64,000 nt of DNA from Arthrobacter subterraneus (GTDB lineage Bacteria; Actinomycetota; Actinomycetes; Actinomycetales; Micrococcaceae). Numbering within the stretch: position 1 is the first letter of the stretch; every line of letters begins with the position of its first letter. Both the position numbers and the translations under genes were made by a program. The notes under the pieces were generated by a model. It ran no database searches, was not told the DNA's origin, and saw nothing but the letters and a program-made list of their open reading frames with translations. Location of the stretch: NCBI RefSeq assembly GCF_900099735.1, contig NZ_FNDT01000004.1, positions 62,001 through 126,000 of the forward strand, written 5' to 3'. This document shows positions 1,645 to 27,094 of this stretch, piece after piece.

Positions 1645-1896
1645 GTGCTGGTTCGATACTTCGGCGCGGCCCAGGCGGCCGCGGGCGTCGCCGAGGAACG
1701 CCTGGACCTGGACAGCGCACCCCTGGAGGAGGTTCTGCAGGAGATCCGCAGCCTCCACCCGGACGGCGACCCCTCCATGGCCCGGGTGCTGGACCGCAGC
1801 AGTTTTCTGCTCAACGAGGTTGCCCTGCGTAGCCGGACCGAGCCGATCCGGCGCGGGGACGTGCTGGATGTCCTGCCGCCGTTCGCCGGAGGCTAG
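1645..1896 (+). CDS. moaD: Molybdopterin synthase sulfur-carrier subunit MoaD
   Basis: Small ubiquitin-fold sulfur carrier (83 aa) of molybdopterin synthase. Its C-terminal Gly-Gly (82-83) would be thiocarboxylated and deliver sulfur to the MoaE subunit, which is not in this window. The start is GTG at 1645, one base after the moaA stop, which points to translational coupling. The next gene is convergent and begins only 23 bases beyond the moaD stop; a short GCAGG-ACA-CCTGC hairpin lies in that gap. A ThiS-like carrier is the alternative, but the position next to moaA favours MoaD. Confidence 0.88.
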   Translation: MLVRYFGAAQAAAGVAEERLDLDSAPLEEVLQEIRSLHPDGDPSMARVLDRSSFLLNEVALRSRTEPIRRGDVLDVLPPFAGG

Positions 1897-1919
1897 GGCG
1901 GCAGGACACCTGCGCGGGC

Positions 1920-3287
1920 CTACAGACCCAGCTCAGCCTCACTGTCAAACGGCCCGACGACGGTAATTGTCCGCGGCGCGTCCGCCAGCTGCCGCGCCAG
2001 GTCCTGTACCTGTTCAGCGGTCACTGCCCGGACCCGCTCAAGGGTCAGGTCCAGCCCGAGAAATTCACCGCTGACCAGCTCTGCGCGTCCGAGCCTGCTC
2101 ATCCGCGATCCGCTGTCCTCCAGGGACAGCACCATGCCGCCGGACAATTGGCCGACCGCGCGCCGCAGTTCCTCGTCGCTTACCGGCTCGGAGGCCAGCC
2201 GCTCCAGTTCCGAGCGCAGCAGGCCGATGACCTGCCCGGTCTTCGCCGGACTGCACCCTGCATACATGGCGAAGTAGCCGGCGTCGGCGTACGACGCCGA
2301 GAAGGAGTAGGTCGAATAGGCCAGTCCACGCTTCTCCCGGATTTCCTGGAAGAGGCGGGAGGACATGCCGCCGCCCAGCACGGCGTTAAGTACGCTCATC
2401 ACAAACCGCCGGTCATCGGTGGCAGTCAGGGCAGGGCAGCCGACCAGCACGTTGGCCTGCTCGACGGCGCGCCGGATGATGTGCACTCCCCCGGTCCCGT
2501 TCAGAACGGCCGGCTGCGGAGCACGCCGGGCCACCGGCGAGGCTTCCTCCGCCAGGTGCCAGCCTGCGCGCTCGAGCGCCTGCACCACCAGGGAGCATAC
2601 GACGTCGTGGTCGAGACCGCCGGCGGCCGTGACCACGAGTTCTTCCGGGCGGTAGTACCGGCGATAGTGCTCCAGGACCGACTCCCGGGAGATCGCCTTG
2701 ATTGCCTCCGGCGTCCCGCCGATCGGGCGGCCGAGCGGATGGGACCGGAGGACTTCCTCCACGAACTTCTCGTGGGCAACGTCGGAGGGATCATCGCTGT
2801 CCATGGCGATTTCTTCCAGGATGACGTGCCGTTCCTGCTCCAGTTCCTCCGGATCAATCACGGCGGAGGTGACCATGTCCGCAATGACGTCGATCGCCAT
2901 GGGCAGGTCCGAGTCCAGAACCCGGGCGTAATAGCAGGTGTTCTCCTTCGCCGTCGCTGCGTTGGACTCTCCGCCGACCTCGTCAAAGGCCGCCGCGATA
3001 TCGAGCGCGCTCCGACGCTGTGTTCCCTTGAAGAGCAGGTGCTCGAGGAAGTGCGTGGACCCGTGCTCGCCGTCCGCCTCGTCCCGTGATCCCACGCCCA
3101 CCCAGAACCCGATGGTTGCCGAACGCTGTCCCGGCATCGCCTCGGTAAGCACGCGCACGCCTCCGGGCAGAACCGAGCGGCGCACCACTGCCCCGCCGGG
3201 TGATCCGGCCACGAGCATGGATCCGCCGCTGGTTGCATCGGGCGTCAGCGGCAGCGTCACGGGGGCACTGTGTCCTGTGTCAGTCAT
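1920..3287 (-). CDS. M16 family zinc peptidase (insulinase/processing-peptidase type)
   Basis: A 455-residue zinc metallopeptidase of the pitrilysin/M16B group, close to mitochondrial processing peptidase beta. The inverted zinc motif HXXEH is at residues 79-83 (H79, E82, H83), and a glutamate sits exactly 76 residues later at E159, as the family requires. The C-terminal half holds the RGLAYSTY substrate-binding region. No signal peptide or membrane segment is seen, so it is probably cytoplasmic. It follows pnp, as in many Gram-positive genomes, separated by a strong hairpin. The start is ATG at 3287 with AAGGAG five bases upstream. Physiological substrate unknown. Confidence 0.92.
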   Translation of the reverse strand: MTDTGHSAPVTLPLTPDATSGGSMLVAGSPGGAVVRRSVLPGGVRVLTEAMPGQRSATIGFWVGVGSRDEADGEHGSTHFLEHLLFKGTQRRSALDIAAAFDEVGGESNAATAKENTCYYARVLDSDLPMAIDVIADMVTSAVIDPEELEQERHVILEEIAMDSDDPSDVAHEKFVEEVLRSHPLGRPIGGTPEAIKAISRESVLEHYRRYYRPEELVVTAAGGLDHDVVCSLVVQALERAGWHLAEEASPVARRAPQPAVLNGTGGVHIIRRAVEQANVLVGCPALTATDDRRFVMSVLNAVLGGGMSSRLFQEIREKRGLAYSTYSFSASYADAGYFAMYAGCSPAKTGQVIGLLRSELERLASEPVSDEELRRAVGQLSGGMVLSLEDSGSRMSRLGRAELVSGEFLGLDLTLERVRAVTAEQVQDLARQLADAPRTITVVGPFDSEAELGL

Positions 3288-3306
3288 TTATTCTCCTTCA
3301 ACGCCA

Positions 3307-3344
3307 GCGGCTCCGCGGCGAAATTCAGTTCGCCGCGGAGCCGC
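3307..3344 (-). terminator. Hairpin between pnp and the M16 peptidase gene
   Basis: A perfect 16-bp stem (arms 3307-3322 and 3329-3344) closes a 6-base ATTCAG loop. It lies 26 bases downstream of the pnp stop and just before the next start. There is no long U tract, so it may be an actinobacterial terminator, an attenuator, or a 3' end stabiliser. Confidence 0.75.
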
Positions 3345-3370
3345 CGGTTTATTCGTTGCGCGTGGTGGCG

Positions 3371-5635
3371 CTAGTTGTCATCGCCCTCAGCGGACTCCGG
3401 GGTGTCGGCGTCTGCAGCATCAGCTGCAGCGTCGGCGTCCTCGGCGACCACGGGAGACAGCGAGAGCTTTCCGCGGTCGTCGATCTTGGTGATTTCGACC
3501 TGGACCTTCTGACCCACGGAGACGACGTCGTCGACGTTGTCCACCCGCTTGCCGCCGGCCAGCTTGCGCAGCTCCGAGATGTGGAGCAGGCCGTCCTTGC
3601 CGGGGGTCAGCGAGACGAAGGCGCCGAAGGTGGTGGTCTTGACGACCGTGCCGACGTAGCGCTCACCGATCTCGGGAACCTGCGGGTTGGCGATGGCGTT
3701 CACCGCGGCGCGGGCGGCCTCAGCCGACGAGCCGTCAGTGGCGCCGATCAGCACGGTGCCGTCATCTTCGATGGAGATGTCGGCGCCGGTGTCCTCCTGG
3801 ATCTGGTTGATCATCTTGCCCTTGGGGCCGATGACCTCGCCGATCTTGTCCACGGGGATCTTGACCGAGATGATGCGCGGGGCGAACTCGGAGAGCTCAT
3901 CCGGAGCGTCGATCGCTGCCTCGAGCACGCCGAGGATGTGCAGACGTGCTTCGCGGGCCTGCTTCAGGGCTGCGGCCAGTACCGAGGCAGGGATGCCGTC
4001 CAGCTTGGTGTCGAGCTGGATGGCGGTGACGAACTCCGCGGTGCCGGCAACCTTGAAGTCCATGTCACCGAAAGCGTCTTCCGCGCCGAGGATGTCGGTC
4101 AGCGCAGCGTAGCGGGTCTCACCGTCAACCTCATCGGATACGAGGCCCATCGCGATGCCCGCGACGGGCGCCTTCAGCGGCACACCGGCGTTCAGCAGTG
4201 ACAGGGTGGAGGCGCAGACGGAACCCATTGAGGTGGAACCGTTCGAGCTGAGTGCCTCTGACACCTGGCGGATGGCGTAGGGGAACTCCTCGCGGCTGGG
4301 CAGCACCGGAACAAGGGCGCGCTCGGCCAGGGCGCCGTGACCGATTTCGCGGCGCTTCGGCGAACCGACACGGCCGGTTTCTCCGGTGGAGTACGGCGGG
4401 AAGTTGTAGTTGTGCATGTAGCGCTTGCGCGTGACCGGCGACAGCGAGTCGATCTGCTGTTCCATCTTGAGCATGTTCAGCGTGGTGACACCCATGATCT
4501 GGGTCTCACCGCGTTCGAAGATAGCCGAACCGTGGACGCGGGGAAGCACCTCGACCTCAGCGGTGAGCTTGCGGATGTCGCTGAGCCCACGGCCGTCGAT
4601 GCGTACCTGGTCGCGGAGGATCCGCTGGCGGACAACCTTCTTGGTGAGTGAGTTGAACGCCCCGGAGATTTCCTTCTCGCGGCCCTCGAACTGGCCGGAC
4701 AGGGATTCAATGACCTCGGTGCGGTAGCTGTTCGCTGCGTTCTCGCGTTCCTGCTTGTCTGCGATCGTGAAGATCTCGGACAGACGCGATCCCGCGGAGC
4801 TCTCGACAGCCGCGAAGACATCGTCCTCGTAGTCCTTGAACACGGGGAACTCGACGGTGGGCTTGGCTGCCCGGCCGGCGAGGTCGGACTGGGCTTCGCA
4901 CAGTGCACGGATGAAGGGCTTTGCTGCCTCGAGACCGTCGGCGACAACCTCCTCGGTGGGTGCGGTGGCGCCGTCGTTCTTGATCAGGGACCAGGAGTTG
5001 TCGGTGGCTTCGGCCTCGACCATCATGATGGCGACGTCGTCACCGACCACGCGGCCGGCAACAACCATGTCGAAGACGGAGTTCTCCAGCTCGGTGTGCT
5101 TCGGGAACGCGATCCACTGGTCCTGGCCGCTTCCGTCGGAGACGAGGGCAACGCGGACGCCGCCGATCGGGCCGGAGAACGGCAGGCCGGACAGCTGGGT
5201 TGACATGGATGCGGCGTTGATCGCCACGACGTCGTAGCGGACGTCAGGGTTGATCGCCAGCACGGTGACCACAATCTGGACCTCGTTGCGCAGGCCCTTT
5301 ACGAATGCGGGGCGCAGCGGACGGTCCATCAGGCGACAGGCGAGGATCGCCTCGGTGGAGGGGCGGCCTTCACGGCGGAAGAACGAGCCCGGGATGCGGC
5401 CGGCAGCGTACATGCGCTCTTCGACGTCGACCGTCAGCGGGAAGAAGTCAAAGCCCTCACGCGGGGACTTTCCGGCGGTGGTGGCGGAGAGGAGCGCGGT
5501 GTCCTCGTCGATGTAGACCATGGCAGCGCCTGCGGCCTGCTGGGCTACGCGCCCTGTTTCGAAGCGCACTGTGCGCTGGCCGAACCGGCCGTTGTCAATG
5601 ACGGCTTCGGCGAACTGGATTTCGGGACCCTCCAA
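3371..5635 (-). CDS. pnp: Polyribonucleotide nucleotidyltransferase (PNPase)
   Basis: Phosphorolytic 3'-5' exoribonuclease, central to mRNA turnover; in Actinobacteria related enzymes also degrade or make polynucleotide tails and ppGpp. Two RNase PH-like domains are followed by a KH domain (GPKG loop) and an S1 domain, with an acidic Asp/Ala-rich tail. The frame stays open upstream to 5713, but I choose TTG at 5635: a perfect GGAGGTGA Shine-Dalgarno at 5641-5648 sits five bases before it, and the protein then begins [16 protein letters not shown] (initiator Met in place of Leu), where homologues begin. That gives 754 aa. It lies downstream of rpsO, the classical rpsO-pnp order. Confidence 0.96.
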
Positions 5636-5864
5636 GAGAGTCACCTCCGTTTCTTTGGTGGCGGAGGCAGGCGGCGTTTTGCTGGTCAACGCCGTGAGGA
5701 CGGGTTGTGGCACCCGGTCTTCGATCGAGGTCCACGGGAAAGACCATCACCTGATGGTGTCCCGGAGACCACTACCGAGGACCGCGAATGCCTGCGTGTC
5801 CGCCTGGCTCCTGGTTATGAAATTACTTCCTCCAACGGCGACTGCGTGGCCGTCAAAGATGGAA

Positions 5865-5894
5865 GGCGGTCCCTTCCCGAAGGAAGGCACCGCC
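5865..5894 (-). terminator. Hairpin downstream of rpsO, before pnp
   Basis: The arms GGCGGT-C-CCTTCC and GGAAGG-C-ACCGCC form a 13-position stem with one C-C mismatch around a CGAA loop, 11 bases after the rpsO stop. On the minus strand a weakly T-rich stretch follows. It may be a terminator or an RNase processing hairpin between rpsO and pnp, as is known in other bacteria. Confidence 0.6.
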
Positions 5895-26010: not shown

Positions 26011-26421
26011 TCAGAGCAGGTAAACGGCTGTGAGGCCCGCTACCGCGCAGGCCCACAGGAGGGACGTCAGGGTACCGATGATGAACCGTTCGGCGGCGGC
26101 GGGTGTTTCCTTCAATTCGGCGTAGCGTCCCAGACCCTTGATGGCGACAACGTAGGCGATGGCCACGGGCTCGTTCAGGAGAATCGCTAGCGCAACCGCC
26201 GTCCGTTCGAGGATGCCGATGACGAGGCCGCCTCGGAGCACCCCCGGAGTATCCGGTGCCGCCTCATCGAGTGCCGCCCCCGTCTCCGGAGCCGCCTCAT
26301 CATCGACGGCGAGGGCCTTCTGCTCATCCACCGCACGTGCCAGGCGAAGCACGGCCAGCGTGATGGGTGAGCCGAGGGCGCCTGCCACGACGAGCGCCAG
26401 GGCTCCCCAAAGAATCTCCAT
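26011..26421 (-). CDS. Small membrane protein paired with the SatD-like regulator
   Basis: 136-aa membrane protein. Hydrophobic segments lie at about residues 5-27, 64-84 and 114-135, with an Asp/Glu/Ala-rich loop between the first and second (around 35-60). The C-terminal half (ERTAVALAILLNEPVAIAYVVAIKGLGRYAELKE followed by ERFIIGTLTSLLWA) resembles the end of DUF3307 membrane proteins, which often accompany SatD; this is from memory. The ATG at 26421 shares one base with the upstream stop (TGATG), so the pair is translationally coupled. Function unknown. Confidence 0.7.
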   Translation of the reverse strand: MEILWGALALVVAGALGSPITLAVLRLARAVDEQKALAVDDEAAPETGAALDEAAPDTPGVLRGGLVIGILERTAVALAILLNEPVAIAYVVAIKGLGRYAELKETPAAAERFIIGTLTSLLWACAVAGLTAVYLL

Positions 26422-27029
26422 CAGCGTGTATCCCCGTCTTCCACCTGGTCTGCCAAGTGCAACAATACGTGGGCTGCCGGCCGGGCGGCCCATTCCTCGA
26501 TCCAGGCGGCACGGAAAACGGCCTTGCTCACCGCCTGCGGGCTGATGTCCAGCGCACGGGCCACCGCGGACTGACTCCCCCGCTGGTGCGGCTCAAGGAG
26601 ATCGAGGATGCGCCACTCCGCCTCCGACCGGTTCATGACAAAGCGTCCGATGAGCGACAGCACCCCTTCCGCCTCAGCAGCGCCGGATGGACCTTCCACG
26701 GCCAGCGGCGCGCGGTCACCGGTTTTCTTGGCGCGCTCGACGGCGGCGCGCGCCGCCACGAATGCACTCCCCCTTCCCTCGCGCGGCGTTGCGGGAAGTG
26801 GAAGCTCGACCGTTCCGATCCCGATGCCCACGTACCAGCCCCCGCCGCGCAGGCACCGCAGCGCTGCATCGACAACCTCTTCCGGCGACGCCAGCACGCC
26901 CTGTAGCTCGTCACCCACCGAGCGCTCAAAGGGAACTGCTGCGGGCACATCAGCCAGCTGCGCGAGCAGTTCCGGAACGCGGTCAGGCTCATGGGTGCTG
27001 TTCCGCTGGTCCACTGTCAGGACGTACAT
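26421..27029 (-). CDS. SatD-like protein fused to a C-terminal helix-turn-helix
   Basis: 202-aa predicted regulator. The N-terminal domain has D7 (MYVLTVDQRNS), GDELQG with D40 and E41, and VGIGIG at 67-72. This spacing is that of the SatD family and recalls the metal-binding palm of nucleotide cyclases; the latter is inference. The C-terminal part has a helix-turn-helix at about 152-176 (SQSAVARALDISPQAVSKAVF). The ATG at 27029 is 6 nt after a -10 and lies in an operator-rich promoter, so it is probably autoregulated. Cyclase activity is not shown. Its stop overlaps the membrane-protein start. Confidence 0.72.
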   Translation of the reverse strand: MYVLTVDQRNSTHEPDRVPELLAQLADVPAAVPFERSVGDELQGVLASPEEVVDAALRCLRGGGWYVGIGIGTVELPLPATPREGRGSAFVAARAAVERAKKTGDRAPLAVEGPSGAAEAEGVLSLIGRFVMNRSEAEWRILDLLEPHQRGSQSAVARALDISPQAVSKAVFRAAWIEEWAARPAAHVLLHLADQVEDGDTR

Positions 27030-27032
27030 GTT

Positions 27033-27094
27033 TCAACCTTAGAAGGTTGATTTACAAAGTTCAACCGTTTCTGGCTGAATTATGAAAGTCAACC
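27033..27094 (-). promoter_or_regulatory. Operator-rich promoter of the SatD-like gene
   Basis: Four copies of TCAACC/GGTTGA lie at 27033-27038, 27045-27050 (inverted), 27061-27066 and 27089-27094. The first two form the perfect palindrome CAACCTT-AG-AAGGTTG (27034-27049). On the minus strand TTGAAC, a 17-base spacer and TAAGGT form a promoter whose -10 lies in the palindrome and ends 6 nt before the ATG. Binding there would block transcription; the SatD-HTH protein is the obvious candidate. Confidence 0.65.

Follow-up and report, generated by a model that had tools for sequence, protein, structure and literature searches.

The DNA examined here, referred to as the window, is a stretch of 64,000 nucleotides from Arthrobacter subterraneus (contig NZ_FNDT01000004.1, positions 62,001 to 126,000). 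Its minus strand carries two coupled genes (Table 1). The first encodes a SatD-like protein with a C-terminal helix-turn-helix (HTH), here called P1, and the second encodes P2, which appears to be a small membrane protein; an array of inverted half-sites lies at their promoter. Our reading of this locus is that P1 is probably a SatD-type autorepressor with a ligand-responsive metal-site palm domain, acting on the operon that it shares with its membrane partner P2. An initial annotation of the window had described P1 as a protein of 202 amino acids with D7, GDE at residues 39-41 and GIGIG at residues 68-72, whose stop codon overlaps the P2 start at TGATG. All of these motifs were found at those residues, and the overlap was confirmed.

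P1 and proteins that match the SatD model PF16264 are homologous over their full length (hhalign 99.65%, E 5.2e-25, residues 2-186 of the window protein), and 12 of 33 relatives match PF16264 at E<=1 (best 2.1e-5). With SatD proteins, including satD of the Streptococcus mutans sat operon, P1 has in common the D...GDE...GIGxG motifs and the full-length architecture ending in an HTH; moreover, several actinobacterial SatD loci are coupled to a membrane gene with a P2-type tail. P1 differs in lying below Pfam detection, in carrying TVDQ where SatD has IGD-type strand ends, and in its location between rseP and yciI/ispG in Micrococcaceae. The sat operon has been tied to acid tolerance and protein translocation; the portions of the sources that were available give no mechanism for SatD. 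The HTH helices are placed at residues 152-159 and 164-173 in the predicted model, and the region matches MarR_2 at E 1.6e-4, below the Pfam cut-off (22.2 bits, where 27 are needed; MarR reaches 14.3 of 24.6). The initial annotation had regarded P1 as a fusion of a SatD-type domain with an HTH. The HTH is indeed present, but the PF16264 model already runs through it (residues 14-206 of the L155 protein align to model positions 3-201 of 211), and therefore SatD plus HTH is, judging from the alignments, the normal SatD architecture and no new fusion.

P2 is all-helical in its predicted model (pLDDT 87.2) and has no Pfam match; PF11750 (DUF3307) is matched by none of 33 P2 members at E<=1. The Pfam model represents the N-terminal GHxxGDFxxQ part of DUF3307 proteins, which P2 does not match, whereas the C-terminal GxxIGxLER...K...R...E...GT segment is common to both. 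The conserved segment of P2 gives 97.8% against six SatD partners from outside the family, and its tail gives 95.7% (E 8.5e-9) against a set of seven DUF3307 proteins, a signal that comes mainly from two that are SatD partners themselves (L157 and L160, 97.8% alone); reversed controls give 1.9 and 0.5%. The suggested resemblance of P2 to the end of DUF3307 is thus upheld.

Table 1. Features of the P1-P2 locus, in window positions.
Feature	Position	Strand	Remark
P2, hydrophobic helical protein with DUF3307-type tail RGGxxIGxLER...KGLGR...ERFIIGT	26011-26421	-	136 aa
TGATG, P1 stop overlapping P2 start	26419-26423	-	read from sequence
P1, SatD-like, predicted palm domain and C-terminal HTH	26421-27029	-	202 aa
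P1 residues 152-173, helix-turn-helix	26511-26576	-	sequence and model; residue 169 covaries with operator base
P1 residues 1-133, predicted nucleotide-cyclase palm fold	26631-27029	-	
D40 codon, GDE turn between strands 2 and 3	26910-26912	-	family conservation
D7 codon, end of strand 1	27009-27011	-	first metal Asp of class III cyclases by hhalign register
Half-site 1, TCAACC	27033-27038	+	exact
-10 element TAAGGT	27036-27041	-	at -12 from ATG, leaderless start; inside palindrome
Half-site 2, GGTTGA	27045-27050	+	with half-site 1 perfect palindrome 27033-27050, center -12.5 from start codon
-35-like TTGAAC	27059-27064	-	17 bp from -10; read from sequence
Half-site 3, TCAACC	27061-27066	+	exact
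Half-site 4, degenerate GGCTGA	27073-27078	+	one-mismatch palindrome at G000:C25:89061
Half-site 5, TCAACC	27089-27094	+	exact

Predicted palm fold, metal-site residues and partner gene

Structure modeling and comparison of the model predict a palm fold of the cyclase/GGDEF type for P1. The motif spacing had earlier been said to recall the metal-binding aspartates of cyclase palms, and profile comparison points the same way: SatD and SatD+P1 profiles aligned to 49 cyclases with hhalign give 75.7-76.9% (reversed control 0.2-0.5%), and in this register two metal-binding Asp residues would stand in line with those of class III cyclases. At the level of computation, these comparisons show the family and fold to which P1 belongs. 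D40 and E41 are kept in all 48 aligned homologues of the family, as are R94, G68 and G70, while residue 7 is D in 25, N in 21 and T or I in 2. Loss of D40 was seen outside the family, in one clade that has no partner gene (L259, L265 and L272); its members also lack D7 and have P (two) or R (the third) in place of D40.

Of 120 sampled genomes from the family, 118 encode a homologue of P1 and 72 have at least two copies, and a profile match to P1 was found in 110 of 198 sampled genomes of the order; the module is therefore common in this part of the actinobacteria. Relatives with a known name, taken from the best 80 of 327 found by one peptide pattern (best identity 88%), put the window close to Arthrobacter. 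Two paralogues can be distinguished: A-type proteins have D7 and an adjacent P2 gene, and B-type proteins have N7 and no P2. The P1 and P2 genes are adjacent or overlapping in 41 of the 63 A-type loci with a measured gap. The genome from which the window was taken encodes its B-type copy on contig C17; in this locus (L031, region of about 2304-5870) the copy lies a few kb from what we take to be inorganic-pyrophosphatase-like and WXG100-like genes.

In order to relate residue 7 to the partner, we tabulated profile matches with E<=1e-8 that start by position 60, counting identical rows once (189 rows), and defined a partner as a match to the partner profile on the same strand within 1.8 kb downstream. 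Residue 7 and the neighbor are known for 177 of these rows: 129 have D and a partner, 6 have D without a partner, 42 have another residue without a partner, and none has another residue with a partner. Nine rows in which residue 7 is unaligned (four with a partner and five without, mostly SatD proper) and three at contig ends were set aside. D7 and P2 are co-conserved. The initial annotation had proposed to look for conservation of D7 and D40 and for co-occurrence with the membrane gene, and each was found: D40 in every family homologue, D7 in the copies with the membrane gene, and P2 itself in nearly all A-type loci as well as beside the 129 D7 proteins.

The operator array of the P1 promoter

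The array comprises five half-sites of alternating orientation within 62 bp, with symmetry centers 14 bp apart. Four copies of TCAACC/GGTTGA, with one palindrome covering the -10 element, had been noted before; all four were found again, the palindrome spans the -10 element, and the degenerate fifth half-site is added here. The four exact hexamers form the densest cluster among the window's 46 copies, and elsewhere the best 57-bp stretch holds two. Since the hexamer is over-represented throughout the window (46 against a shuffle mean of 26.4), the evidence lies in clustering, symmetry and conservation, not in the hexamer count. Across 58 dereplicated A-type promoters, symmetry centers fall at -12.5, -26.5, -40.5 and -54.5 from the start codon; 3.5-4.1 of the 6 positions are complementary there, against at most 2.26 in 8 shuffles. 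The first three centers recur unchanged, with 3.3-3.9 positions complementary (maximum of 20 shuffles 2.21), in a set of 53 D7 loci of which 52 belong to other families of the order, although most of these loci with a clear operator type use CTTG/CAAG.

The promoter has the features of a leaderless gene. In bacteria, a TANNNT motif some 12 bp ahead of the start is a mark of such genes, according to the available part of the source (PMC3160421), and P1 has its -10 element at about this distance from the start codon and no Shine-Dalgarno (SD) sequence. Of 65 A-type promoters, 56 have TANNNT starting at -12 and 7 have it at -13, and none carries an SD-like motif; outside the family TANNNT is found at -12 in 30 of 53, with SD-like motifs in 3 of 53.

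In its own genome the exact palindrome occurs once, and 11 more places are found at one mismatch, including the second unit of the P1 promoter and a site before the B copy. Within the genus, an exact palindrome was found once in each of 24 genomes out of 38, and 22 of these 24 palindromes lie 3 bases (in one case 4) before P1. The two others are at L294, with no P1 near, and at L297, a short locus at a contig end that holds no P1. Two of the 38 genomes contain the reversed pattern, twice each. Of 33 dereplicated B-type loci, 24 carry the palindrome in their promoters with no more than two mismatches. At the level of these computational surveys, the array is specific to the P1 gene and its paralogue. 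Residue 169 of the HTH is K or R in 39 of 42 GTTG-type loci and is not K or R in 28 of 29 CTTG-type loci, with 40 of the 111 rows having no clear operator type; residues 169 and 173, both in the recognition helix, tie as the best predictors of the operator base among 204 positions.

Genomic neighborhoods of P1, P2 and DUF3307

A survey of 396 genomes of the phylum yielded 14 DUF3307 loci. The co-directional gene immediately upstream encodes SatD in three of them (L196, L201 and L331, by profile) and a cyclic nucleoside monophosphate (cNMP)-binding protein in four (L194, L200 and L202 by Pfam, L332 by likeness to L202), with a class III cyclase gene before the cNMP-binding gene in L200 (operon at 1849-3304), L202 and L332. 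Counted by genus, SatD or a cNMP-binding gene lies upstream in 5 of 10. The other seven loci showed no SatD or cyclase by profile in flanks of about 1.5 kb, in which cNMP-binding genes were not profile-searched. These upstream genes place DUF3307-type proteins in operons of a cyclic-nucleotide type, and the pattern suggests that SatD may stand in for cyclase and receptor in DUF3307 operons.

Gene order in the 65 named A-type loci is nearly constant: dxr, rseP, P1, P2, yciI, ispG. RseP is encoded in 65, Dxr in 64, P2 in 63, YciI in 62 and IspG in 61; L086, L096 and L107 are cut by contig ends, and L088 is not. In the window, the genes upstream are presumably rseP and dxr, and ispG presumably lies downstream; the downstream neighbor of P2 is a YciI-like gene (Pfam). 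About 1.4 to 3.1 kb of extra DNA lies between rseP and P1 in L080, L082, L130 and L131, where the operator array is still found before P1. SatD proper and a P1-type SatD-like protein are encoded on the same strand of one locus, L164 (1480-2163 and from 2839). SatD proteins with no membrane partner seen are encoded at L150, L151 and L153, beside what we take to be a fumarase-like gene and, in L150 and L153, a malic-enzyme-like gene as well. Elsewhere in the window, positions 5713-5786 match the Actino-pnp RNA (Rfam RF01688) above the gathering score.

Regulatory model and alternative explanations

In the mechanism that we propose, P1 would be a one-component transcription regulator in which a palm domain with the acidic metal-site residues D7 and D40 is joined to a C-terminal HTH. 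A P1 dimer would bind the alternating half-sites, 14 bp from center to center, in an array that would cover the -35 and -10 elements up to the start of the leaderless mRNA, and from this operator position P1 would be expected to repress both itself and the coupled P2. A nucleotide or related ligand, together with metal at the palm domain, may change DNA binding. P2 would be a functional partner whose level is set by the P1 loop and which may contact P1; it goes with an intact P1 metal site and might need one.

Several observations weigh against this model. P1 itself does not reach the gathering score of PF16264 and has no match to it at E<=1 in Pfam, Foldseek with the P1 model returned no match at E<=0.001 (best 0.0044), and the P1 branch alone has weak profile homology to class III cyclases (22.6%). 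On the tree, the D7/partner pattern amounts to three changes, two of them forced by supported branches, with too few independent pairs for a test, and the loss of D7 rests on two to three events. Six D7 rows have no adjacent partner; L025 and L218, which are of this kind, group with N7 rows in the same starred 26-row group. SatD proteins at L150 and L153, which lie outside the family, retain the Asp although they have no partner. P2 is therefore not needed for D7 to be kept; what is not observed is P2 in the absence of D7. The exact palindrome is missing from 14 of the 38 genus genomes, and 9 of 33 paralogue promoters have no site. With up to two mismatches allowed, 159 sites turn up in the genome of the window, compared with 111 for the reversed pattern, and therefore weak sites elsewhere mean little and a wider regulon is not readable from them. 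The match between residue 169 and the operator base would be expected if P1 reads the operator directly; shared descent weakens it, as five pairs on supported branches, with a mean of 3.7 concordant and 0 opposite, give p 0.125, reflecting few independent changes.

A quite conceivable alternative, to which we give less credence than to an autorepressor with a functional metal site, is that P1 senses its ligand through a dead palm, as PucR-type regulators do, with the metal residues serving a structural role and P2 merely lying in the same operon. The consulted part of the literature (PMC11617747) describes PucR and MabR as having a GGDEF-like domain without the catalytic motif, plus an HTH; P1 likewise has a palm domain followed by an HTH, PucR-type regulators (MabR Rv2242, BAD_0249) take Foldseek ranks 1-4 and 8, and the paralogue that lacks D7 keeps D40 and, in the majority of its promoters, the operator. 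However, structural roles alone would not predict that D40 and E41 are invariant and that D7 is never lost beside P2 in 129 rows. Unlike the MabR palm, which according to the same partial source lacks the catalytic motif, P1 keeps GDE and D7; its domains are also placed differently (rmsd 14-16 A), and the PucR-type domains PF17853 and PF13556 are not among its Pfam matches at E<=1. An active enzyme seems unlikely: P1 would produce a signal as a nucleotide cyclase or a related nucleotidyl enzyme, P2 would be the membrane receptor or exporter of that signal, and the HTH would close a feedback loop. The fold of residues 1-133, the metal Asp pair in register, the invariant R94 in the helix after GIGIG, and the DUF3307 genes that follow a cyclase and cNMP-binding gene, or a cNMP-binding gene, where others have SatD, all favor it. 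Class III cyclases, however, carry a transition-state Asn (NxxxR helix) in the helix matching positions 84-104, and Asn is never the commonest residue there in P1 homologues (at most 9 of 48, at position 98), so that P1 is not expected, by these residues, to be a standard cyclase. In addition, the place of the adenine-selecting Lys is taken, as assigned by register, by R36 in P1 and varies in other SatD proteins, PF00211 is not among the Pfam matches of P1 at E<=1, and the paralogue has N7 yet keeps the operator. A reading in which P1 does not bind the palindromes, and they serve a different regulator or are some feature of the promoter or mRNA, is very improbable. The position of the -10 element within a repeat would fit this, but nearly all exact genus sites lie at the P1 promoter, the site recurs at the unlinked paralogue, its geometry is kept in other families while its sequence changes, and the best base predictors lie in the recognition helix of P1.

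The initial annotation knew of no described system with this layout. This holds in so far as the literature searched, in the parts available, contains no description of SatD as a cyclase-fold regulator; it does not hold for a palm domain joined to an HTH, and because PucR-type regulators already exist, the layout of P1 is known in outline. The novelty lies in the conserved metal site, in the membrane partner and in an operator array that extends across the order. More tentatively, SatD-type proteins might be a widespread, unrecognized family combining, in one polypeptide, a metal-dependent nucleotide-signal enzyme or sensor of cyclase fold with repression of its own operon, with the DUF3307-tail protein as its dedicated effector, in a two-gene module that replaces the class III cyclase and cNMP-binding protein of other DUF3307 operons; we would still put this below even chances by a good measure. 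For SatD, a family of unknown function, these results supply a fold, a DNA target and a partner in one step. With an operator predicted at the level of single bases, for a protein expected to bind or make a nucleotide, the model is directly testable. The proximity of DUF3307 to genes for SatD, cyclases and cNMP-binding proteins gives a way into the study of that membrane family, and P1 and P2 together hint at a compact signaling unit.
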